From NCBI RefSeq assembly GCF_000167355.1, contig NZ_AAEW02000004.1:1-64000 (forward strand): a stretch of 64,000 bases of DNA, written 5' to 3'. The DNA comes from Desulfuromonas acetoxidans DSM 684. Its GTDB lineage: Bacteria; Desulfobacterota; Desulfuromonadia; Desulfuromonadales; Desulfuromonadaceae. The notes under the pieces were generated by a model. That model did not search any database. It saw only the letters and a program-made list of their open reading frames with translations, and was not told the DNA's origin. Every line of letters starts with the position of its first letter. The first letter of the stretch is position 1. Shown here piece after piece: positions 4,798 to 45,290 of this stretch. The translations under genes and the position numbers were made by a program.

Positions 4798-4850
4798 GGC
4801 TTTTTCGTTCAGCAGCACTGAACGTCAGCGCGTGAACCACTGAAGAGCAA
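4798..4850 (+). repeat. Truncated copy of the ~580-bp structured repeat (tail)
   Basis: A deletion derivative of the large intergenic repeat. The hairpin-5 sequence (GTTCAGCAGCAC-GAAC) is joined directly to the unit end (GAACCACTGAAG), and a GGTCAAGATCAA tract follows. Confidence 0.7.
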
Positions 4851-5420
4851 GGTCAAGATCAAAGTCAAGGTCGCCGGGTTTCGTCCCGGCAGCCGACATA
4901 TTTTTGACTGGCCGCTCAAAAGTATGGAAAAGCCGGCTTAAACTTCTCCTGAACCTGGATCAACCGACAATGTGTCAGTTTCACTGATTCGGCTTGCCGC
5001 CCTTTAGGTCGACGAATCGTGCAACTCATCATCTTTGGCGTAAAACGTTGATAACGGTTTGATGCAACTCCATATTCCTACCGTGGCACTGATCAAACGG
5101 GTGGGCAGTGCCCACCCTTCGACAGAGTGTTATTTAGCTCCCAAGCCCTCCCGTTCAGCAGCACCGAACGTAATGAACGTCAGCGCGATGGTTGTCGGCA
5201 ACTTGTTTGAGCGCCAGCAAGTTTTGCCGACATCGCGATGTAAGTAAATGGAGTGAGGGAACCCGTAAGGGTGCAATGACGAGAGTCGATTTTGCCTCCC
5301 TTTTTTCGACGCAAAAGGGAGCCGACGGGCGGGCGCGGAAGCCCGCGTCATGTGCGTACCATCGTTGCGAACGGATGAAGTTTGCTAGAGCGATTAGTTT
5401 CGGATTGCGAACCACTTAAG
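4851..5420 (+). repeat. ~580-bp structured intergenic repeat, cluster 1, full unit
   Basis: Full copy of the repeat family. In order: a GATCAA/AAGTCAA tract, hairpin GCCGGG-TTTCGT-CCCGGC, hairpin TTTTGA..TCAAAA, an AACGTTGATAAC box, hairpin GGGTGGG/CCCACCC (5099-5117), GTTC..GAAC, hairpin TGTCGGCAA/TTGCCGACA, ACCC-GTAA-GGGT, hairpin CTCCCTTTT/AAAAGGGAG (5296-5304 with 5313-5321), and GGGC-GCGGAA-GCCC. Short ORFs on both strands lack ribosome sites and are not called. Confidence 0.85.
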
Positions 5421-5760
5421 GTCAAGATCAAAGTCAAGGTCGCCGGGTTTCGTCCCGGCAGCCGACATGCTTTTGACTGGCCGCTCAAAAGTATGCAAAA
5501 GCCGGCTTGAACTTCTCCTGAACCTGGATCAACCTATAATGGATTTGTTTCCGTTATGCCTCACTGATTCGGTTTTCCGCCCTTTAGGTCGGCAAATCGT
5601 GCGACTCATCACTATTGGCGTAAAACGTTGATAACATATTATGTCGCGTTCTATCTCTGGTGTGGCTCCGATCTAACGGGTGGGACGGAGCCCACCCTTG
5701 CAGTTGTGTGTTGTTTTGCACCTCTGCGCTCCCTTTCAGCAGCACCGACACCTACGTTGT
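5421..5760 (+). repeat. Structured intergenic repeat, cluster 1, 3'-truncated unit
   Basis: Second copy in the same orientation. It covers the unit from the AAGTCAAGG tract through hairpin GGGTGGG/CCCACCC (5678-5697) and stops in the GTTC/GAAC segment. The stretch from 5760 to the ttcA end is unique and shows no gene. Confidence 0.8.
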
Positions 5761-20436: not shown

Positions 20437-20538
20437 TCCTGGCGCGCGGGTGCGGAAGCCCGCGTCATGTGGGTACCACCATTGCGAGCGGATGAAGTTC
20501 GCTGGTGCGATTCGTTTCAAGTTGCAAACCACTGGAGG
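20437..20538 (+). repeat. Structured intergenic repeat, cluster 2, truncated tail
   Basis: Starts in the last hairpin of the unit (GCGGAAGCCCGC) and runs to the unit end (AACCACTGGAG). It lies immediately after gltD. Confidence 0.75.
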
Positions 20539-21118
20539 TCAAGATCACAGTCAACACCGCCGGGTTTCGTCCCGGCAGCCGACATCCTTTTGACTGGCCG
20601 CTCAAAAGTATGCAAAAACCAGCTGGAACACCTCCTGAACCTGGATCAACCGACAATGGGGCTATTTCCGTTTTGCTTCACGGATTCGGCTCGCCGCCCT
20701 TTAGCTCGGCAAATCATGCAACTCATCAGCTTTGGCGTAAAACGTTGATAACAATCTTAAGTCGCGCTCTATCTCTGGTGTGGCACCGATCAAACGGGCG
20801 GGCCGGTGCCCGCCCTGCAGTCGTGTGTTATTGAGCAGCCAAGCTCTCCCGTTCAGCAGCACCGAAAGCAATGAACGTCAGCGCAATGGTTGTCGGCAAC
20901 CTGTTTGAGCGGTAGCGAGTTTTGCCGACATTGCGATGTAAGAGAATGGAGAGAGGGAACCCGATAGGGTGCAATGACGGGAGTCGATTTTGCGGTACTT
21001 TTGTCGACGCAAAAGTGCCCCGACGTGCGGGCGCGGAAGCCCGCGTCATGTGGGTACCACCTTCGCGAACGGATGAAGTTCGCCGGTACTGTCAGTTTCG
21101 AGTGACGAACCACTGAAG
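20539..21118 (+). repeat. Structured intergenic repeat, cluster 2, unit a
   Basis: Full ~580-bp unit. Its hairpins carry their own variants: GGGCGGG/CCCGCCC in place of GGGTGGG/CCCACCC, and GGTACTTTTG (20994-21003) pairing with CAAAAGTGCC (21010-21019). Compared with cluster 1 both sides of the stems have changed together. Nearly identical to unit b. Confidence 0.88.
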
Positions 21119-21699
21119 ATCAAGATTAAAGTCAAGGTCGCCGGGATTCGCCCCGGCAGGCGACATCCTTTTGACTGGCCGCTCAAAAGTATGCAAAAAC
21201 CAGCTGGAACACCTCCTGAACCTGGATCAACCGACAATGGGGCTATTTCCGTTTTGCTTCACGGATTCGGCTCGCCGCCCTTTAGCTCGGCAAATCATGC
21301 AACTCATCAGCTTTGGCGTAAAACGTTGATAACAATCTTAAGTCGCGCTCTATCTCTGGTGTGGCACCGATCAAACGGGCGGGCCGGTGCCCGCCCTGCA
21401 GTCGTGTGTTATTGAGCAGCCAAGCTCTCCCGTTCAGCAGCACCGAAAGCAATGAACGTCAGCGCAATGGTTGTCGGCAACCTGTTTGAGCGGTAGCGAG
21501 TTTTGCCGACATTGCGATGTAAGAGAATGGAGAGAGGGAACCCGATAGGGTGCAATGACGGGAGTCGATTTTGCGGTACTTTTGTCGACGCAAAAGTGCC
21601 CCGACGTGCGGGCGCGGAAGCCCGCGTCATGTGGGTACCAACATTGCGAACGGATGAAGTTCGCCGGTGCGATTCGTTTCAAATGACGAACCACTGAAG
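21119..21699 (+). repeat. Structured intergenic repeat, cluster 2, unit b
   Basis: Tandem copy of unit a at a 581-bp period. About 470 bp (from roughly 21161 to 21630) reads identically to unit a, pointing to a recent duplication or gene conversion. Confidence 0.88.
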
Positions 21700-22142
21700 A
21701 GCAAAGTCAAAACCGCCGGGTTTCGTCCCGGCAGCCGACATCCTTTTGACTGGCCGCTCAAAAGGATGCAAAAACCAGCTGGAACACCTCCTGAACCTCA
21801 GATCAACCGACACTGTGTCTGTTTCCGTGATGCTTTGTAGATCCGGCTCGCCGCCCTTTAGGTCGGCGAAACGTGCAACTCATCATCTCTGGCGTAAAAT
21901 GTTGATAACAATCTTAAGTCGCGCTCTATCTCTGGTGTGGCACCGATCAAACGGGCGGGACGGTGCTCGCCCTGCAATCGTGTGTTATTGAGCAGCCAAG
22001 CTCTCCCGTTCAGCAGCGCCGAACGGCAGTGCAATGCTCGTCGGCAACCTGTTTGAGTGATAGCCCGCGTCATGTGGGTACCACCATCGCGAATGGATGA
22101 AGTTCACTAGAGCGATCAGCTCCGAATGACGAACCACTGAAG
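21700..22142 (+). repeat. Structured intergenic repeat, cluster 2, unit c with internal deletion
   Basis: Starts as a normal unit. Hairpin 2 here is CATCCTTTTGA..TCAAAAGGATG, a compensated change from CATACTTTTGA..TCAAAAGTATG in other units. Between the TCGGCAAC arm and the last hairpin about 140 bp are missing, so it resumes at AGCCCGCGTCATGTGG. The stretch 22143-22305 is unique and shows no gene. Confidence 0.82.
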
Positions 22143-22305
22143 TTCAAGATTATATAGGCAGGATTGCCGGGCTTTACCCACCCCATGGGTATTGAAATTA
22201 ATCAGAGAGGATAACCGGTCAAGGTGTCGTTCTGTCGTATCGGACAACGGGTGACTGGCCTCTTGTTTTCTCCGTGTCTCACTGCTTCCGTTGAGATCCC
22301 TTTCC

Positions 22306-30683: not shown

Positions 30684-32522
30684 ATGGACTCCATTCACGA
30701 TCTTGATCTGTCTCTGGTTGCCACTCGCCCCGGCGTCTATCTGATGTTTGGCGAAGATGGCCGGGTACTTTATGTCGGTAAGGCGCGTAATTTGCGTGCT
30801 CGGTTGCGTAACTATGTGCGCGGTGAAGACACGCGCGCCCATGTTCAGTTTTTATTGCGCCGGGTGGTGCGGGTCGAAACGATTGTCACCGACACGGAAA
30901 AAGAGGCACTGATTCTTGAAAACACTCTGATCAAGAAACATAAACCCCGTTACAACATCAATTTGCGCGATGATAAAACCTATGTGTCGCTACGTATTGA
31001 CATCACCGAGCCGTTTCCCGGTATTCAGATTGTCCGCCGGGTCAAGCGGGATGGAGCCCTGTATTTCGGGCCTTATTCCTCCGCCGGAGCCTTAAAGGAA
31101 ACCCTCAAGGAGTTGTATCGGATCTTTCCGTTGCGTCATCACCGCTGGCAGCAGTGCCGACGTCGTGATCGGCCCTGCCTGTTTTATCAGATCGGTCAGT
31201 GCAGTGCGCCCTGTCATGGCAAGATCAGTCAGGAGGACTATCGCAAACTGGTCGATACAGTCATTGCCTTCCTCTCCGGGCGTCATGATGATGTGATTAA
31301 CATGCTGCGCGACAAGATGGCTCAGGCCGCTCAAGAGATGAATTACGAAGAAGCCGCGCGGTTGCGTGACCAGATTCGGGCCATGGAGCAGACCATTGAG
31401 CAACAGAAAGTGGTCAGTGCCGACGGGACCGATAGCGATGTTGTCGGGCTGCATCGCGAAGGCGGCGAAGTGGAAGTGTGCCTGCTGTTTGTCCGTGCCG
31501 GTCGACTGGTGGGGCGGCGCAGTTATCTTTTAAGCTGGACCCTGGACGAAGATGAACTTCTGGCCGGATTTCTTCAGCAATACTACGGTCGCGATACGCT
31601 GATTCCGCCGAAGGTGCTGCTGCCGTTGTTGCCCAGCAGTGCCGAGACGTTACAGTTGTGGCTCAGTGAGCGGCGCGGCAGTAAAGTGCATCTGCAGGTG
31701 CCCAAGCGCGGGGCACGCAGTGAGTTGCTCGAACTGGCTAATAAAAATGCCACAGAAAGCTATCGTGAGCGAGGTGACCGCCGTGATGCCCGCACCGCAG
31801 TTCTTGAAGATATTCAGAAGTCGTTGGGGCTGTCCCGGCTGCCGCAACGGATGGAGTGTTACGATATCTCTAATGTTCAGGGTCAGTACAGTGTTGGTAG
31901 TATGGTGGTGACCACCGATGGTGAACCCGATAAAGCCGCGTACCGCCATTATCGCATTAAAACCGTGGAAGGCGCTGATGACTTTGCCTCATTGCATGAG
32001 GTCCTGACCCGCCGATTGTCGCGTGGCATCGAAGAGCAGGATCTGCCCGATATGGTGCTGATCGATGGCGGTAAAGGGCAACTGGCCATGGTGGACGATG
32101 TTTTGACCACACTCAACCTGCATTCCCGCATTGACCTGGTGTCTATTGCCAAGAGCCGTGTGAAACGCAATGTGCGTGGGCATGCCGTTGAACGCAGCGA
32201 GGAGCGATTCTTCCGCCCCGGGCGAAAAAATCCCGTTGTGTTACGCCAGGGGTCGCCAGCGCTGTTTATGCTTGAACGGCTGCGGGACGAAGCGCATCGT
32301 TTTGCTATTACTCACCATCGTAAGTTGCGCAATAAGGCGACCTTGGAATCGGAATTGGATAAAATTCCTGGGGTTGGACCGGGGCGGCGCAAAGCATTGC
32401 TCAAGCATTGCGGCAGTGTGACCAAGGTGAAAAAAGCGTCGTTGCAAGAGTTGCAACAGGTTCCAGGCGTGCCGGATAGTGTGGCACAGGCTGTGTACGA
32501 TTATTTCCATTCTGCGCAATGA
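30684..32522 (+). CDS. uvrC: Excinuclease ABC subunit C
   Basis: Makes the dual incisions in nucleotide excision repair. From the ATG at 30684 (GGAAGG site) it is 612 residues. The GIY-YIG domain is GVYLMFGEDGRVLYVGKARN. The UVR motif lies near NYEEAARLRDQIRAMEQ. The RNase-H-like endonuclease domain follows (ECYDISNVQG and DMVLIDGGKGQL), and the C-terminus has the tandem helix-hairpin-helix (IPGVGPGRRKALLKH and VPGVPDSVAQAVYDYF). The stop codon lies inside sequence matching the intergenic repeat that starts here. Confidence 0.96.
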   Translation: MDSIHDLDLSLVATRPGVYLMFGEDGRVLYVGKARNLRARLRNYVRGEDTRAHVQFLLRRVVRVETIVTDTEKEALILENTLIKKHKPRYNINLRDDKTYVSLRIDITEPFPGIQIVRRVKRDGALYFGPYSSAGALKETLKELYRIFPLRHHRWQQCRRRDRPCLFYQIGQCSAPCHGKISQEDYRKLVDTVIAFLSGRHDDVINMLRDKMAQAAQEMNYEEAARLRDQIRAMEQTIEQQKVVSADGTDSDVVGLHREGGEVEVCLLFVRAGRLVGRRSYLLSWTLDEDELLAGFLQQYYGRDTLIPPKVLLPLLPSSAETLQLWLSERRGSKVHLQVPKRGARSELLELANKNATESYRERGDRRDARTAVLEDIQKSLGLSRLPQRMECYDISNVQGQYSVGSMVVTTDGEPDKAAYRHYRIKTVEGADDFASLHEVLTRRLSRGIEEQDLPDMVLIDGGKGQLAMVDDVLTTLNLHSRIDLVSIAKSRVKRNVRGHAVERSEERFFRPGRKNPVVLRQGSPALFMLERLRDEAHRFAITHHRKLRNKATLESELDKIPGVGPGRRKALLKHCGSVTKVKKASLQELQQVPGVPDSVAQAVYDYFHSAQ

Positions 32523-32663
32523 TGGGAGTCGATTTTACGTCTCTTTTGTCGACACAAAAGGGGGCTGACGTGCGAGCGCGGCAGCCCGCGTCATGTGGGC
32601 GTCACCATCGCGGACAGATGAAGTTTGCCAGAGCTGTCCGTTTCGGATTTCGAACCACCGAAG
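32514..32663 (+). repeat. Structured intergenic repeat, cluster 3, truncated tail fused to uvrC end
   Basis: Homology to the repeat begins at GCAATGA-GGGAGTCGATTTT, which contains the uvrC TGA. Hairpin 8 reads CTCTTTTG/CAAAAGGGG and hairpin 9 GAGCGCGGCAGCCCGC. Confidence 0.78.
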
Positions 32664-33268
32664 AGCAAGATCAAAGTCAAAGTCAAAGTCAAAGTCAAAG
32701 TCAAGGTCGCCGGGTTTCGTCCCGGCAGCCGACATACTTTTGACTAGCCGCTCAAAAGTATGCAAAAGCCAGCTTGAACACCTCCTGAACCTGGACTCAC
32801 CGACAATGCATCTGTTTCCGTGATGCTTCACGGATTCGGCTCGCCGCCCTTTAGGTCGGCAAATTCTGCAACGCATCACCTTTGACGTAAAACGTTGATA
32901 ACAATATGATGTCTCGCTCCATTTCTTCCGTGGTACCGATAAAACGGGTGGGCAATGCCTACCCTGCCAGAGTTTGTTATTTAGCAGCCAAGCTCTCCCG
33001 TTCAGCAGCACCGAACGAAATGAACGTCAGCGCGATGTTTGTCGGCAACCTGTTTGAGCGCTAGCGAGTTTTGCCGACATCGCGGTGTAAGAGAATGGAG
33101 AGAGGGAACCCGTAGGGTGCAATGGTCGGGAGTCGATTTTGCGCCACTTTTGTCGACGCAAAATGTGGCCCGAGGTGTGGGCGCGGAAGCCCAAGTCACG
33201 TGGGTACCAACATTACGAGCGGATGAAGTTTGCCAGCGCGATCAGTTCCGTATAGCGAACCACTAAAG
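32664..33268 (+). repeat. Structured intergenic repeat, cluster 3, unit a (expanded hexamer tract)
   Basis: Full unit whose leading tract holds about five AAGTCA hexamers (32673-32705). Hairpin 8 is GCCACTTTTG (33143-33152) with CAAAATGTGGC (33159-33169), a third arm variant with one bulged T. Hairpin 4 reads GGGTGGG/CCTACCC, still paired through a G-T wobble. Confidence 0.86.
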
Positions 33269-33850
33269 ATCAAGATTAAAGTCAAGGTCGCCGGGTTTCG
33301 TCCCGGCAGCCGACATACTTTTGACAGGCCGCTCAAAAGTATGCAAAAGCCAGCTTGAACACCTCCTGAACCTGGATCAACCGACAATGCGTCTGTTTCC
33401 GTGATGCTTCACGGATTCGGCTCGCCGCCCTTTAGGTCGGCAAATTCTGCAACGCATCACCTTTGATGTAAAACGTTGATAACATGCTCATGTCTCTCTC
33501 TATTCCTTCCGTGGTACGTGTAAAGCGGGTGGGCAGTGCCCACCCTACTGAAGTGTGTTATTTAGCAACTAAGCTCTCCCGTTCAGCAGCACCGAACGCA
33601 ATGAACGTCAGCGCGATGTTTGTCGGCAACCTGTCTGAGCGGTAGCGAGTTTTGCCGACATCGCGATGTAAGAGAATGGAGAGAGGGAACCCGCAAGGGT
33701 GCAATGGTCGGGAGTCGATTTTGCGCCACTTTTGTCGACGCAAAATGTGGCCCGAGGTGTGGGCGCGGAAGCCCAAGTCACGTGGGTACCAACATTACGA
33801 GCGGATGAAGTTTGCCAGCGCGATCAGTTCCGTATAGCGAACCACTAAAG
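33269..33850 (+). repeat. Structured intergenic repeat, cluster 3, unit b
   Basis: Full ~580-bp unit. Hairpin 8 is GCCACTTTTG / CAAAATGTGGC (33725-33751), as in unit a. Hairpin 7 is ACCC-GCAA-GGGT. Confidence 0.86.
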
Positions 33851-34428
33851 ATCAAGATTAAAGTCAAGGTCGCCGGGTTTCGTCCCGGCAGCCGACATAC
33901 TTTTGACAGGCCGCTCAAAAGTATGCAAAAGCCAGCTTGAACACCTCCTGGACCTGGATTAACCGACAATGCATCTGTTTCCGTGATGCTTCACGGATTC
34001 GGCTCGCCGCCCTTTAGGTCGACGAATCGTGCAACGCATCATTTTTGGCGTAAAACGTTGATAACATGCTCATGTCTCTCTCTATTCCTTCCGTGGTACG
34101 TGTAAAGCGGGTGGGCAGTGCCCACCCTACAGAAGTGTGTTATTTAGCAACTAAGCTCTCCCGTTCAGCAGCACCGAACGCAATGAACGTCAGCGCGATG
34201 TTTGTCGGCAACCTGTCTGAGCGGTAGCGAGTTTTGCCGACATCGCGATGTAAGAGAATGGAGAGAGGGAACCCGCAAGGGTGCAATGGTCGGGAGTCGA
34301 TTTTGCCTCCCTTTTGTCGACGCAAAAGGGAGCCGACGTGTGGGCGCGGAAGCCCACGTCATGTGGGTACCAACATTGCGAACGGAAGATGTCTGCCAGA
34401 GCAATTCGTTCAAGAACAGGAACCACAG
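33851..34428 (+). repeat. Structured intergenic repeat, cluster 3, unit c
   Basis: Full unit. Hairpin 8 switches back to CTCCCTTTTG (34307-34316) / CAAAAGGGAG (34323-34332), and hairpin 9 reads GTGGGC-GCGGAA-GCCCAC, compensated relative to GCGGGC..GCCCGC elsewhere. It ends at AACCACAGATGG, where homology stops. Confidence 0.86.
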
Positions 34429-34474
34429 ATGGTCATAATCTCCGCCTCTGCCGCATCAAAGAGGCCCGTAAACA

Positions 34475-34511
34475 AAAAAGCCCCCGCAGAAATCTCTGCA
34501 GGGGCTTTTAA
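34475..34511. terminator. Intrinsic terminator for the cytochrome gene
   Basis: AAAAGCCCC-C-GCAGA pairs with TCTGC-A-GGGGCTTTT (a G-T wobble when read from the minus strand). T-runs lie on both sides. It begins 18 bp after the cytochrome stop. Confidence 0.85.
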
Positions 34512-34529: not shown

Positions 34530-35891
34530 TTAGCGCGGGCTACCAAGACCATCTGACTTGATCGTGATAGTTTCTTCCCACTCTTTCCACAATTGAGCAG
34601 AAGTCCGCTTGTTGCCGAAAGGCAGGTACCACAGCTCAACGGTGACGTCCATCTCGCGCTCGAGAGTTTCTCGTACCATTTTGCCGGCAGCATTTTTTAC
34701 GTCATCCGTGGGGAAGAAGATGTCGAAACGCTCTTCAACTTCTTTTCCTGGAGGAAGACAGGTGTCTTCGATGATGCCGCTCTTTTCGTAAGGTCCACGA
34801 CCCATGATGTCGCTGCGACCGAACTGCTGAGGCGTCGGCATGTAGATGATGTCTTTGGTGAAAATTTCCCCTTCTTCTTCAGTTGTTGCACGTACCGACA
34901 GAACCAGTCGGTTAGGGGTCGGTCAGCCATCAGGGATTGCGTGGCCGGCACGGTTGGTCATTTTCACTTTCAGGACGGTTTTCGGAGTCAGCTTGCTGCC
35001 ATCACGCCAGCGGGTGGCAAAGGCTTCGACGTCGAAGTCAACAGCCATTTCCTGCATGGTGGGATCGCTGTAGCTCAGGATCTTGTGACCCAGGCCGGAT
35101 TTCTCCATGTGGCATTCCTGGCAACGCTCGTGGCCACCTTCAGCGGTGTAAGACCACAGGTAGCTGCCGTACAGGGTGGCGCACTGGGTGGGGTTTTCCA
35201 GCTCGAAGTTGGGGCCGAGACCGTGGCACTGACCACAGAAGATCGACTCGTTCATGATCGGGCTGACCTTCATTTTGGTGAAGTGCTCGTCTTCGTGCTC
35301 ACCTTCGTTGAAGCCATAAACGGTATCGCTTTGCGGATAACCGTCGGTCCACTTGTGAGTGATGGCCATGCGGTTGTGACAGATCAGGCAGTTGATGTTG
35401 AGGGCCAGCAGAGTTTCCTCGTACTTGGCGCGCTCGTCAGCTTTGCCGGCTTTGGCGGCATCGTACCAGCTGTTGAGAGTTTCAACCAGCTCAACGGCAA
35501 CGCTGTCTTCGGCGTCAGCCAGTTGCGGCAGGTGGCACTTGGCGCAGCCCATCAGGTGCTCAACCTTAACGTCTTCCGGACCATTAACACCGGAGTACGC
35601 CCAGGACATGAAACCGTTTTTCATAGCGGTGATCATGGTGGCAGCGGTGCGGCCGGTGCCGTACATGGGACGAGCGTGGGGAGATGCCGCCCAGTCGTCG
35701 TGAATCTCTTCGTGACAGTCGATGCAGGCGGTCGAGTCATACATCTCGATCAGCTCTGCCAGGGTCTTGGCTTTGCCTTTGGTGGCTGCGATGGTGCCGT
35801 CACGACCAACGCCGGCGCCAATGGCGAAGACGCAGGTGGCGCTGAGCAGCACGATCAGCAGCGAAAGGCTGATACTTCTAAGTCGATTCAT
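34530..35891 (-). CDS. Secreted pentahaem cytochrome c with in-frame UGA (probable selenoprotein)
   Basis: One 453-codon frame from ATG 35891, broken only by TGA at 34923-34925 (codon 323), after which the same frame runs 130 codons to a TAA. A signal peptide (LLIVLLSATCVFA) leads, then five c-type haem sites: CIDCH, CAKCH, CLICH, CGQCH and CQECH. The TGA lies in GHAIPDG-(TGA)-PTPNRLVLSV, and the text after it is still protein-like (GEIFTKDIIYMPTPQQFG). A SECIS-like stem-loop starts 10 nt past the TGA. I therefore read codon 323 as selenocysteine; a nonsense mutation is the alternative. The product is a periplasmic or extracellular electron carrier or reductase. It follows a small secreted protein gene. 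Confidence 0.75.
34893..34911 (-). promoter_or_regulatory. Candidate bacterial SECIS element
   Basis: Minus-strand stem ACCGAC / GTCGGT with a seven-base loop TGGTTCT. The loop carries a G in its second position, 17 nt after the TGA, matching the loop-G and spacing rules known for bacterial SECIS elements. Confidence 0.6.
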
Positions 35892-35916: not shown

Positions 35917-35945
35917 AAAAAAGACCCTCACTGGGGATGAGGGTC
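35917..35945 (-). terminator. Terminator/attenuator between small secreted protein and cytochrome
   Basis: Minus-strand stem GACCCTCA / TGAGGGTC around a seven-base loop, followed by T6. It lies between two codirectional genes, so it may lower transcription into the cytochrome gene. Confidence 0.75.
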
Positions 35946-35974: not shown

Positions 35975-36208
35975 TTAGCAACCAGTCAGCATATCGTTGC
36001 CGCCGGAAGGTGCGGCAGCAGCGCCTTTTTCGATATCCATCTCAACTTTGTCGCCTTTGGAGATTTTTTTAGCGTCAGAGCGGGAAACTTCTACTGTTAC
36101 TTTGCTACCGCGAACTTTAACAACTTCGCCATCGACGCTGGCGAAAGCAGCAGAGCACAGGCCACCGATAAATGCAGCAGTAGCCATCAGAACGATCATT
36201 TTTTTCAT
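35975..36208 (-). CDS. Small secreted protein, SH3/OB-like, unknown function
   Basis: A 77-residue protein with a clear signal peptide (MIVLMATAAFIGGLCSAAFA) and a short mature domain, VDGEVVKVRGSKVTVEVSRS, then AKKISKGDKVEMDIEKG, ending in a single cysteine (DMLTGC). The beta-rich charged pattern suggests a small barrel. An AGGAG site precedes the ATG. It lies upstream of the cytochrome with a terminator between, which suggests shared regulation at different expression levels. No known function is recognised. Confidence 0.75.
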   Translation of the reverse strand: MKKMIVLMATAAFIGGLCSAAFASVDGEVVKVRGSKVTVEVSRSDAKKISKGDKVEMDIEKGAAAAPSGGNDMLTGC

Positions 36209-38472
<2,264 letters not shown>

Positions 38473-38480
<8 letters not shown>

Positions 38481-38811
38481 TCGCAAGCCACATCAGGAGC
38501 GCTTTCACGAAACCGTTGATCGCAAAGCCCAGCGCAAGCGCACGGAGCAGATCCGCAATCAACAACCACTGTGGAGCGGCTTCAGCCTGTTCGGCATTGT
38601 CGGCTGGTCCGTGGCAATACCGACATTGGTGGCCATTGCCGTGGGCATCTGGCTGGACCGCCATGTGCAAGGCGGCCCATCGTGGACGTTGACGCTGCTG
38701 CCCATCGGCATCGGCCTTGGCTGTCTGGCGGCCTGGCGCTGGGTCTCCCACGAAGAGCAGCAGATTCACCATCAGCCGGAGACGCAAGAGGAGGACAATG
38801 ATGACCAGTGA
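38473..38811 (+). CDS. atpQ: N-ATPase accessory membrane protein AtpQ (AtpI-like)
   Basis: A 112-residue protein with a charged N-terminus (ERFHETVDRKAQRKRTEQIR) and two transmembrane helices (FSLFGIVGWSVAIPTLVAIA and LTLLPIGIGLGCLAAWRW). It matches the ATPase_gene1/AtpI type that occupies this position in N-ATPase operons and is thought to help assemble the c-ring or pass Mg2+. It overlaps both neighbours. Confidence 0.85.
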
Positions 38812-39100
38812 CTGGTTGGGTGGCGCATTAGCCGTCAGTGTCGGCTTTATCCTCGGCCTGATCTTCTTTGCCGGGTTGTGGTGGACCGTGAAACGGGCCG
38901 TCACTTCGCCGCATCCGGCACTGTGGTTTATCGGCAGCATGCTGATTCGGGTGGCTATCACCCTGGTGGGCTTTTACTGGGTCAGTGCTGATCAATGGTG
39001 GCGGTTGTTACTCTGCACCGCCGGGTTTATCGTGGCGCGGCCGGTGGTATCACGCACTGTCAACCAACCCGACACAGGCAGGAGGACACCATGCAATTAA
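38798..39100 (+). CDS. atpR: N-ATPase accessory membrane protein AtpR
   Basis: A 100-residue protein with about three transmembrane helices (LAVSVGFILGLIFFAGLWW, ALWFIGSMLIRVAITLVGFY, and a third near LLLCTAGFIV) in the AtpR slot between atpQ and atpB. AtpR is specific to N-ATPase clusters and has been proposed to work with AtpQ in rotor assembly. Two adjacent ATGs (38798, 38801) follow a GAGGA site. It overlaps atpB by 10 nt. Confidence 0.83.
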   Translation: MMTSDWLGGALAVSVGFILGLIFFAGLWWTVKRAVTSPHPALWFIGSMLIRVAITLVGFYWVSADQWWRLLLCTAGFIVARPVVSRTVNQPDTGRRTPCN

Positions 39101-39762
39101 GCTCCGATGCCGTCATTTTCTGGAGCCATGGCTGGTTTAATCTCAACCTGACCATTGTCACCACCTGGGTGCTGATGGTGGTACTGGTCGGGGGAAGCTG
39201 GCTGCTGACACGGCGTCTGGCCCAACAAGACCGTCATACCCGGCTGCAGGCATTACTGGAGATGATTATCATTGCCATGGTCGACCTGCTCAAGGACGCC
39301 GGGCTGAAACCGGCCCGCCACTATCTGCCGCTGATCGGGACCCTGTTCATCTTTATCGCCCTATCCAACCTGCTGGTGATCATTCCCGGCTATCAGGCGC
39401 CGACCGGCTCGCTGTCAACCACCACGGCTCTGGCGGTGATCGTGTTTGTCGCTGTGCCTTATTACGGCATTCGCTCCCAGGGCGTCAGGGACTATCTGGC
39501 CTCGTATCTCAAGCCGGTATGGATCATGTTGCCGTTTAACCTCATCGGTGAGCTGTCGCGCACTCTGGCTCTGGCGGTGCGCCTGTTCGGCAACATGATG
39601 AGCGGTGCCATGATCGGTGCGATTTTACTGATGATCGCACCGTTGATTTTTCCGTTATTAATGAATCTGCTCGGTCTGCTCACCGGCATGGTTCAAGCGT
39701 ACATTTTCTCGGTTTTGGCCATCGTTTATATTGCTGCGGCCATCCGAATTCATCCTCAATAG
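39091..39762 (+). CDS. atpB: N-ATPase Fo subunit a
   Basis: Ion-channel subunit a, 223 residues with five or more helices. The essential stator arginine lies in the conserved helix LIGELSRTLALAVRLFGNMM, and the C-terminal helix VQAYIFSVLAIVYIAAA is typical. It begins inside the atpR end with an AGGAGG site. The c-subunit gene follows at 21 bp. Confidence 0.93.
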   Translation: MQLSSDAVIFWSHGWFNLNLTIVTTWVLMVVLVGGSWLLTRRLAQQDRHTRLQALLEMIIIAMVDLLKDAGLKPARHYLPLIGTLFIFIALSNLLVIIPGYQAPTGSLSTTTALAVIVFVAVPYYGIRSQGVRDYLASYLKPVWIMLPFNLIGELSRTLALAVRLFGNMMSGAMIGAILLMIAPLIFPLLMNLLGLLTGMVQAYIFSVLAIVYIAAAIRIHPQ

Positions 39763-39783
39763 GTGTTTCTTTCAGGAGGAGTT

Positions 39784-40062
39784 ATGGAAGCGCAAACCTG
39801 GATCGCTATGATCTCCATTTTCACTGCCGGTATCACCATCGCCATCGGCTCCATCGGCTCGGCACTTGGCGAAGGACGCGCTGTGGCCTCGGCCTTGACA
39901 TCCCTGGCCCAGCAGCCCGATTCCGCTTCGACCATTACCCGCACCCTGTTTGTCGGTTTGGCCATGGTTGAATCAACGGCTATTTACTGTTTTGTCGTGT
40001 CGATGATCGTGCTGTTCGCCAATCCGTTCTGGAACCATTTCCTGGAGGCGGCAGGAGGGTAA
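39784..40062 (+). CDS. atpE: N-ATPase Fo subunit c (predicted Na+-binding type)
   Basis: A 92-residue rotor-ring proteolipid with two helices. The outer-helix ion site is VEST (Glu63, Ser64, Thr65) with Tyr68, and the inner helix supplies Glu30 in GSALGEGRAVA. The Glu-Ser-Thr set and the polar residue opposite are the features used to predict Na+ coordination. The second carboxylate (Glu30, where simple Na+ rings have Gln) is the N-ATPase pattern. I chose the ATG at 39784, directly after an AGGAGG site. Confidence 0.92.
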   Translation: MEAQTWIAMISIFTAGITIAIGSIGSALGEGRAVASALTSLAQQPDSASTITRTLFVGLAMVESTAIYCFVVSMIVLFANPFWNHFLEAAGG

Positions 40063-40066
40063 CGCC

Positions 40067-40858
40067 ATGCTATTGGATACCTTTACCATCATTGCCCAGC
40101 TGATCAATTTCCTGATCCTGGTCTGGCTGCTCAAGCGTTTTCTCTACAAACCGCTGCTGGACGCCATCGACAAACGTGAGCAACGGTTGCGTGACAAACA
40201 GCAGGAAGCCGAACAGCGTGAGCAACAGGCCCAAGAGCTGCAAAAACAACTCATCGCGCAGCGCGAAGAGCTGGAACAAAATCGTCAGCAGGCACTGGAT
40301 GACATCCGCACCGAAGCGGCAACACTGAAGCAACACCTCAGTGAACAAGTGCGCCGCGACGTCGACAACAAGCGGCAGGTCTGGCATGACCAGTTATGCT
40401 CCGAACAGGAAGCGGAAAGCCTGCGCATCCACCAACGCATTGAAAATGAACTGCTGTCATCGTTGCAGCACATGCTCGAACAGCTTGCTGACCGCTCTCT
40501 GGAACAACAGAGTCTGCGGGTGTTCATGGACAAACTCCACCACCTCGACGACACAGAAAAGCAGGAACTGACAACGGCGCTGGCCAGCGCATCAAAACCA
40601 CCTCGTCTGGTCACCAGCGCACCACTCGAGGATCAGGAGCAACAGTGGATCTCTGAACAACTGCACCAGGCCCTCGACTGTAAAAATGTGGTGTTTGAAA
40701 CTCAGGCTGACTTGCTATGCGGTGCCGAACTGCTGACTGACGGCCATAAAGTCAGTTGGACGCTGGCCAGCCAATTGGCCGATCTGTCGGATCACTTGCG
40801 CCAGACCCATGCCTCGTCACAGCCTTGTGACGACAACACGGAGCAGGACAATGAGTGA
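40067..40858 (+). CDS. atpF: N-ATPase Fo subunit b, long form
   Basis: A 263-residue stator subunit: an N-terminal membrane helix ([20 protein letters not shown]), a long coiled coil ([20 protein letters not shown] and onward), then a C-terminal globular part (near [20 protein letters not shown]). It is about 100 residues longer than a normal b. N-ATPase operons lack a separate delta gene, and the extra C-terminal part is thought to replace it. It overlaps atpA by 8 nt. Confidence 0.9.
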
Positions 40859-42371
40859 TCTTTTTCAGCAATGGATCGATTCGGCCTGCACCCACCTCAA
40901 ACAGGGCGTGGATGCGTTACCGGATCACGTGGCCATCCGTGAATCGGGCCGCGTCACCACGGTTTCCACCGGCATTGCCAAAATCAACGGCTTGCCCGGT
41001 GTCGGTGCCGAGGAACGGGTTGAGTTTCCCCATGGTATTGAAGGAATTGCCTTCAATGTCGATGCCGACGAAGTCGGCGTGGTGCTGCTCGGTGATTATC
41101 AATATCTGCATACCGGCGATGAAGCACGACGCTCGGGGCGGGTCATGGATGTCCCCGTGGGCGAGACGCTGATCGGCCGGGTGATCAACCCACTGGGTGC
41201 GCCCCTCGACCAACAGGGGCCGGTCAACAATCAGCACCGCCTGCCCATTGAACGTCCGGCTCCGGCCATTATGGAACGGGCTCCGGTCACCACGCCGTTG
41301 CATACCGGCATCAAGGTGGTTGATGCCCTGGTACCCATCGGTCGCGGCCAGCGTGAGCTGATCCTCGGCGACCGCCAAACCGGCAAAACCGCCATCGCCA
41401 TCGACACCATCCTCAACCAGAAGGGGAAAAATGTCCGCTGCGTCTACTGCGCCATCGGCCAGCGCTCCGCTGCCGTGGCACGGGTTATCGCCGAGCTGGA
41501 ACGACGCGGCGCCATGGACTACACCGTGGTCATGGTGGCCGAGGGCAACGACCCTCCGGGCCTGTCATACATCGCCCCCTATGCCGCCACCACCATTGCT
41601 GAAGAGTTTATGCGCCAGGGCGATGATGTGCTGATTGTTTATGACGACCTGACCCACCACGCCCGCGCCTACCGCGAACTGTCACTATTGCTGCGCCGCC
41701 CGCCCGGCCGCGAGGCATTTCCCGGCGACATCTTCTATATCCACTCGCGGCTGCTTGAACGCGCCACCCACCTGCACCCGGACCACGGCGGCGGTTCGCT
41801 TACCGCCCTGCCGATTATCGAAACCGAAGCGCAGAACATGTCGGCGTATATCCCCACCAACCTGATCTCCATCACCGACGGACAACTGTATCTATCGCCC
41901 ACCCTGTTTGAACTCGGCGCGCTGCCGGCCATTGATGTCGGCAAATCGGTGTCGCGGGTGGGCGGCAAAGCCCAACTCGAAGCGTACCGCAGGATTGCCG
42001 GTAACCTGAAACTCGCTTATGCCCAGTTTGAAGAACTGGAAACCTTTGCCCGCTTCGGCACCCGGCTCGATGAATCGACTCAGGCCACCATCAACCATGG
42101 CCGACGCATTCGCGCCTGCCTGAAACAACAGCAATACAGCCCGGTTTCGGTGATCGAACAGCTGGGCGTGCTGCAGGCTCTCAACAGTGGTCTGTTTGAT
42201 CCGATTGATGAGGAGAGCATGGCGACCGCCGAACAAACCGTGCGCGATGCCATGAAGGGACTCGATGAGAAGCAACAGCAACAACTGACAGGGGAAGCAA
42301 CCTTTGACACCGCGGTTATGGACGAGATCACAGCTCTGGCGCGCCGGGCACTGACGGAGAACGCATCATGA
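40851..42371 (+). CDS. atpA: N-ATPase F1 subunit alpha
   Basis: Non-catalytic nucleotide-binding subunit, 506 residues. The P-loop is [14 protein letters not shown], followed by [17 protein letters not shown] and [32 protein letters not shown]-type alpha signatures. I chose the ATG at 40851, which overlaps the atpF stop, rather than an upstream in-frame start inside atpF. The stop overlaps atpG (ATGA). Confidence 0.94.
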
Positions 42372-44504: not shown

Positions 44505-44605
44505 GGGACCGACGTGCGGGCGGCAGCCCGCGTTATATGCGCACTATGCGGTGTGAACGGATGAAGTTTTCCCGCGCGATCTGTTCTAAATGATGAACCA
44601 CTGAA
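44505..44605 (+). repeat. Structured intergenic repeat, cluster 4, truncated tail
   Basis: Starts at ACCGACGTGCGGGC in hairpins 8-9, just after the lipase stop, and ends at the GAACCACTGAAG unit boundary. Confidence 0.75.
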
Positions 44606-45195
44606 GCTGAAGCTCAAGATCAAAGTCAAGACCGCCGGGTCTCGTCCCGGCAGCCGACATACTTTTGGCTTGCCGCCCAAAAGTACGCAAAAGCCAGCTT
44701 GAACACCTCCTGAACCTGGATTCACCTACACTGAGTCTGTTTCTGTTATGCGTCACAGATTCGGCTCGCCGCCCTTTAGGTCGACGAATCGTGCAACTCA
44801 TCAGCTTTGGTGTAAAACATTGATAACAGGCTCACGCCTTGCTCTATTCTTTCCGTGGCACCGATCAAACGGGTGGGACGGTGCCCACCCTTGCGGCAAA
44901 GTTGTCATTTAGCAGCCAAGCCCTCCCGTTCAGCAGCGCCGAACGAAGAGAACGGTCAGCGCGATGGTTGTCGGCAACCTGTTTGAGCGTCAGCAAGTTT
45001 TGCCGACATCGCGGTGTTAGTGAACGTAGAGAGGTAACCCGTAAGGGCGCAATGACGGGAGTCGATTTTGTTCCCCTTTTGTCGACGCAAAAGGGGACCG
45101 ACGGGCGGGCGCGGAAGCCCGCGTCATGTGGGTACCACCATTGCGGACGGATGAAGTTCGCCGGTGCGCTTCGTTTCAAATGACAAACCACTGAA
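44606..45195 (+). repeat. Structured intergenic repeat, cluster 4, full unit
   Basis: Full unit with compensated arm changes. Hairpin 2 reads ACTTTTGG..CCAAAAGT where others have TTTTGA..TCAAAA. Hairpin 3 is CTGT..ACAG where others have CCGT..ACGG. Hairpin 8 is TCCCCTTTTG (45072-45081) / CAAAAGGGGA (45088-45097). Confidence 0.87.
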
Positions 45196-45290
45196 GATCA
45201 AGATCAAAGTCAAGGTCGCCGGGTTTCGTCCCGGCAGCCGACACTGTATCTCTACCCACCCGTTCAGAAGCATCGAACGTCACGTGAGCA
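45196..45290 (+). repeat. Structured intergenic repeat, cluster 4, truncated head
   Basis: Begins with the GATCAAGATCAAAGTCAAGG tract and hairpin 1, then jumps to the CCGTTCAGAAGCAT-CGAACGTC segment of hairpin 5. Confidence 0.7.

Follow-up and report, generated by a model that had tools for sequence, protein, structure and literature searches.

ExtKL is a multihaem c-type cytochrome of Geobacter sulfurreducens that contains an in-frame TGA and is annotated as two genes, GSU2937 and GSU2936. GSU2937 and GSU2936 together were predicted in 2007 to be a selenoprotein, with listed homologues that include Desulfuromonas acetoxidans, and in the passages of that paper available here neither a SECIS element nor homologues lacking selenocysteine (Sec) had been found for the family (PMC1914089). 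The name ExtKL is used in a 2018 study, the available parts of which describe an antibody against the protein, place its gene in the cluster extHIJKLMNOPQS, and propose, for Geobacter, a role of the protein in selenite reduction and a connection with the reduction of selenite and tellurite (PMC5877670). In the parts available of other papers, ExtKL stands in a table of prokaryotic selenoproteins (PMC13188914, 2026), a listed ‘cytochrome c family protein’ is probably the same protein (PMC9312934, 2022), extK is reported from two Desulfuromonas strains (PMC8235581), and sulfate reducers that live alongside methane-oxidising archaea express an ExtKL homologue at a high level (PMC10553843). A close homologue, ‘Multiheme cytochrome c selenoprotein (MccSep)’, has been deposited in the PDB as one 450-residue chain (9wt8, 9wta and 9wtb) by authors who name it a selenoprotein and have made a U325A mutant; 9wt9 and 9wtc have Ala at the Sec position and are named ‘mutant (MccSep U325A)’ and ‘MccSep’, respectively. 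A literature search for a paper on MccSep (9wt8–9wtc) found none, returning only a neuroscience paper on another subject. Further relatives include the pentahaem cytochrome c552 of Thermochromatium tepidum (5ze8), which has Ala where ExtKL has Sec, and the pentahaem cytochrome (PHC) family of cable bacteria, which PMC11976967 presents as structural homologues of ExtKL that have an immunoglobulin-like domain (‘seleno’ is absent from the available text).

The locus considered here lies in a stretch of 64,000 nucleotides from D. acetoxidans DSM 684 (contig NZ_AAEW02000004.1), referred to as the window, and comprises the following features:

35975..36208, minus strand: extJ, encoding a 77-aa small protein, directly upstream of extKL (NF040942.2 hypo_ExtJ, E=1.6e-20, 73 bits, cut-off 52.5)
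35923..35945, minus strand: terminator-like hairpin between extJ and extKL (8 Watson–Crick pairs, then TTTTTT; z -3.4 and -3.7)
34530..35891, minus strand: extKL, predicted five-haem c-type cytochrome selenoprotein of 453 aa with Sec323, from signal peptide to TAA (NF040886.1)
34923..34925, minus strand: in-frame TGA, codon 323, most likely read as selenocysteine (TGA in 70/75 aligned proteins, Cys in 4 fetched loci)
34894..34912, minus strand: predicted SECIS hairpin ACCGAC-UGGUUCU-GUCGGU (-9.1 kcal/mol; SECIS rules and synonymous constraint)
34476..34509, minus strand: intrinsic terminator after the extKL TAA (15-pair stem, then a T run; z -6.1)

The initial annotation left the strand unstated; extKL lies on the minus strand (35891..34530), and translation there bears out the proposed frame from signal peptide (a hydrophobic N-terminus, judged by eye) to TAA, with a single in-phase TGA at codon 323 (34925-34923) and five CXXCH motifs (CIDCH, CAKCH, CLICH, CGQCH and CQECH). 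As that annotation had foreseen of gene callers, mechanical ORF calling splits the gene into a five-haem fragment of 322 aa (34923..35891) and an ORF of 103 aa (34530..34841). Residues 13-445 match positions 5-423 of the 423 in the NCBIfam model NF040886.1, ‘multiheme c-type cytochrome (seleno)protein ExtKL’, at 600.1 bits (E=1.7e-180), far above the curated cut-off of 250. The family was already predicted in 2007 and is covered by an NCBIfam model of its own, so the extKL of the window is not new but a member of the described ExtKL/MccSep family, and it may itself figure among the D. acetoxidans homologues of 2007.

The likeness to Geobacter ExtKL extends to the five haems, the in-frame TGA, the NF040886 match and the adjoining extJ; the Geobacter gene sits in the larger ext cluster, whereas beside the window copy extJ is the only ext gene recognised among the neighbours scanned. 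The deposited MccSep gives a phmmer E of about 1e-191 and an alignment that runs through the Sec position (residue 325 in MccSep, 323 in the window). The AlphaFold model of extKL has a mean pLDDT of 62.9, falling below 50 in the Sec loop, and is therefore too poor for a Sec–haem distance; in it, the low-confidence Sec loop connects two strands of a single C-terminal beta-sandwich, and a domain would thus be interrupted by a stop at 323. Foldseek with this model returned 4 matches at E up to 0.001, the first being 5ze8 (E 4.2e-07, TM-score only 0.25-0.29), which is likewise pentahaem and has a similar C-terminal loop, HAMPTGAPFRN, and whose sequence match to extKL is weak (phmmer E 3e-4, profile E 3e-9).

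The TGA recurs across the family. Among 75 distinct aligned proteins, including the window extKL and its second copy, the codon at this column is TGA in 70, TGT in 3, GTT in 1 and ATC in 1; TGA is retained down to 30% identity, and its recurrence in the same column of so many distinct proteins is more than chance would give. Matches covering fewer than 300 query residues (pieces from genomes G001 and G053, and a cut second copy in locus L105), the loci L076 and L093, which repeat others, and identical proteins are outside the 75. The initial annotation had proposed looking for homologues with Cys aligned to the TGA, and four fetched loci have it, each as TGT (L103, the second copy in L104, L106 and L107), the last being excluded from the alignment because of a further internal TAA. 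Val or Ile occupies the column in L105 and in the first copy of L104, each of which opens a tandem pair; the partner has Cys in L104, and in L105 it is truncated ahead of the column. These tandem ExtKL paralogues without Sec (L104 4008-6762, G084:C12; L105, G258:C132) have the loop PDS instead of PDG in the first paralogue, next to the Ile or Val. A family match was found in 22 of the 58 genomes searched, the organism's own included, and in a sample of the phylum 40 of 395 genomes exceeded the NF040886 cut-off; 44 of the 51 full rows above it carry one TGA, the remaining 7 are the non-TGA copies just described, and one further row, the 52nd, merely holds the tail of a protein counted among the 51. 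Selection on the frame was measured as omega against 10 partners chosen out of 74 possible: 3' of the SECIS region it is 0.00-0.34 for nine of them, the tenth, the second extKL copy, being identical there and giving no defined value; the 5' part gives 0.07-0.29. The values past the SECIS region indicate purifying selection on the frame beyond the TGA.

The machinery for decoding UGA as Sec, another check suggested by the initial annotation, is complete in the genome assembly (3,820,511 bases in 51 contigs), which contains selA, selD, two selB genes and two tRNA-Sec genes. selA, selB and selD are clustered on contig C16, which also bears one tRNA-Sec, and the second selB (114388-116253) lies on contig C10 with its own tRNA-Sec (116462-116553); a third Rfam match above the tRNA-Sec cut-off was rejected as a tRNA-Trp by ARAGORN. 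A selB match is present in 39 of the 40 genomes with extKL against a background of 353/395, a weak association because selB is common anyway, and the single extKL genome without a match (G170) is 76% complete. As side observations, selD (G000:C16:39498-40415) has an in-frame TGA of its own, as in Sec-containing SelD proteins, and the C10 SelB (L109, G000:C10:108000-122000) is 58% identical to the C16 SelB. The C10 selB and tRNA-Sec adjoin grdH/grdG-like betaine reductase genes (below the NCBIfam cut-offs), a betaine BCCT transporter gene and an acetate kinase gene, and this region is possibly a travelling Sec-decoding and betaine-reductase module; genome G001 has two selB genes as well, one with an adjoining tRNA-Sec.

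The signal that would recode the TGA is a hairpin directly downstream. A stem ACCGAC/GUCGGU with loop UGGUUCU and a loop G 17 nt after the UGA had been pointed out from the raw sequence, and is found as described at 34912-34894, with 16 nt from UGA to loop and 17 nt between UGA and loop G. The rules of the bSECISearch model for bacterial SECIS elements, as quoted in the available part of PMC13188914, are a loop of 3-9 nt, a stem of 4-16 bp, a G in the first two loop positions, a distance of 16-37 nt from the UGA and an MFE of at most -7.5; applied by hand, they accommodate the window hairpin, which has a 7 nt loop, 6 bp, G at the second position, 16 nt and -9.1 kcal/mol. A search of Rfam over 34700-35000 gave no match at E up to 1. 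The most synonymously constrained stretch of extKL runs from codon +4 to codon +10 after the TGA. When the isolated window sequence is folded, an alternative at -9.3 kcal/mol beats the hairpin (-9.1) by 0.2, and this alternative pairs the 5 nt directly after the UGA. With a UGA in the ribosomal A site, the next five nucleotides should sit in the mRNA channel. Folding from nucleotide +10, +11 or +12 onwards yields the hairpin (at +12 minus its first pair), and the competing fold is likely answered by the ribosome holding the first five nucleotides after the UGA.

The same region was compared across the family after splitting the Sec sequences by the motif CTGGTTCTGTCGGT, which 29 possess, the window extKL among them, and 41 lack. 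In the first group, scored on 26 of the 29 sequences after removal of near-duplicates, codons +4 to +9 are synonymously invariant, a state reached by only 9 of 285 scored columns (mean 0.53); in the second group (n=41), codons +4 to +11 score 0.81 vs a gene mean of 0.43. The best 7-codon window of synonymous identity falls at +4 to +10 in the first group and +4 to +11 in the second. Folding of the 39 nt after the TGA, tested against synonymous recoding on distinct sequences, gave a mean z of -1.51 in the first group (n=21, 17 below -1), -1.28 in the second (n=39, 26 below -1) and -0.04 in non-Sec homologues (n=5, 1 below -1); despite these group means, many or most of the single tests are not significant. 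In the second group, most of the 41 sequences can be drawn as a bulged hairpin like GUGGUCC-UGGAA-G(U)GACCGC, whose loop lies about 22 nt past the UGA and in which 91.2% of cells are paired vs 20-66% in slid controls; L083 and sequences with GGCAC (e.g. L079, L086 and L087) have the same apical loop with other pairings. Two-sided pair changes occur in one sequence each, L058 (C-G to G-C) and L091 (G-C to A-U). Covariation in this group is thin, since slid controls match or exceed it (2 and 4 two-sided-change cells at slides -3 and +1; a covariation score of 0.071 at slide +3 vs 0.067 for the hairpin), and the stem of the first group, to which the window belongs, has none. The split does not simply follow taxon, as L037 (genome G022), a distant copy from the window's own order, falls in the second group. 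Judged from these alignments, it is an evenly balanced proposition that the family carries two SECIS designs on one conserved protein loop; with loops at 16 and about 22 nt, this would mean a shift of the recoding signal by about 6 nt that left most of the surrounding amino acids in place. Cys and Val/Ile paralogues exist as well. Both the SECIS-like hairpin and the Cys/non-Cys homologues contrast with the statement in the available passages of PMC1914089 that neither had been found. The two designs and the Cys/non-Cys homologues are likewise absent from the prior-art passages at hand, in a literature search targeted at neither.

Other readings of the TGA can be set against this evidence. Two separate genes, extK ending at the TGA and extL starting at its own ATG at 34841, which opens the 103-aa ORF, would agree with the annotation of Geobacter as GSU2937 and GSU2936 and with ‘a highly conserved operon’, left as a possibility in the part of PMC1914089 available. 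That arrangement is nevertheless very improbable: residues 324-328, which lie between the TGA and this ATG (residue 351), are invariant in 26/26 rows of alignment A1, open-frame homologues have Cys at the TGA column, the TGA falls in a loop inside one beta-sandwich (in a model of moderate confidence, low in the loop), and a homologue was deposited as one 450-residue chain. Lone in-frame stops are often sequencing errors or pseudogene mutations, yet the same codon at the same position in the genome's second copy and in 70 of the 75 proteins, together with an omega well below 1 downstream, leaves such an origin scarcely credible. Equally far-fetched is the reading of UGA as another amino acid, such as Trp, or its general suppression without SelB; the decoded residue itself is not visible to sequence analysis, but the fetched loci otherwise have Cys (4) or, in tandem paralogues, Val/Ile (2), never Trp, the RNA is constrained at the SECIS position, where the 5 non-Sec homologues are on average without excess folding, and the genome has the full sel gene set.

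Reading UGA323 as selenocysteine is thus the most likely account on the sequence evidence, and the initial proposal of selenocysteine in a pentahaem cytochrome is upheld by the conserved TGA, the sel genes, the exchange with Cys, the constraint on the hairpin at the RNA level and membership in the family. It is almost certain that extKL encodes an exported five-haem cytochrome whose C-terminal beta-sandwich bears one Sec in GHAIPDG-U-PTPNRL. A complex of SelB, GTP and Sec-tRNASec would bind the hairpin, starting about 11 nt past UGA323, and insert Sec; translation would then continue past UGA323 to the TAA, and the terminator beyond would end the transcript. We infer that SelB uses the window hairpin in this way.

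The surroundings of the gene add a second copy. An extJ–extKL pair on contig C21 shares 94% DNA identity with that of the window over a 1.9-kb stretch, and its ExtKL is 98% identical in protein with the TGA at the same position; it is preceded by glutamate-synthase-like, NAD(P) oxidoreductase and DUF3373 genes, and no other ext genes were recognised beside either copy among the neighbours scanned. Neither the second copy nor extJ was mentioned in the initial annotation. The hairpin between extJ and extKL (35945-35923), seen in one terminator scan and missed by another, has a counterpart of different sequence, also followed by a T run, in the same gap of the C21 copy (L108 6355-6440), so that these intergenic hairpins are perhaps conserved as structures for attenuation. 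Because a terminator-like hairpin lies between them, extJ and extKL may be uncoupled or attenuated at this point rather than sharing one transcript. Two scans found no minus-strand terminator-like site between the TGA and the TAA. Repeats of up to about 0.9 kb, dispersed and with no evident genes, occur in the window (4834-5748, 20448-22148, 32516-34435 and 44506-45243) and in L108 (7870-8871); at 32689-34151 the inner spacing is about 582 bp. As each extKL gene has one of these repeats at its border, they may have been the vehicle of the duplication. Further along the window, 36653-42371 holds genes of an F-type ATP synthase, unusually ordered with beta first and including an ATPase_gene1 subunit; they probably encode an N-type ATPase.

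Inspection of the raw sequence has picked out a protein that very probably is a genuine selenoprotein. A multihaem cytochrome with selenocysteine is chemically unusual, and the case is already in print, with structures of a homologue deposited. The selenol of extKL would act as a redox group or as a ligand close to the haem chain, and by analogy with the proposal for Geobacter ExtKL it may serve extracellular or oxyanion (selenite-type) electron transfer. For a family in which the available passages of PMC1914089 had neither, a candidate SECIS element and Cys homologues would be a modest possible gain, and the Cys and non-Cys homologues would allow naturally occurring variants with Sec, Cys or other residues to be compared.
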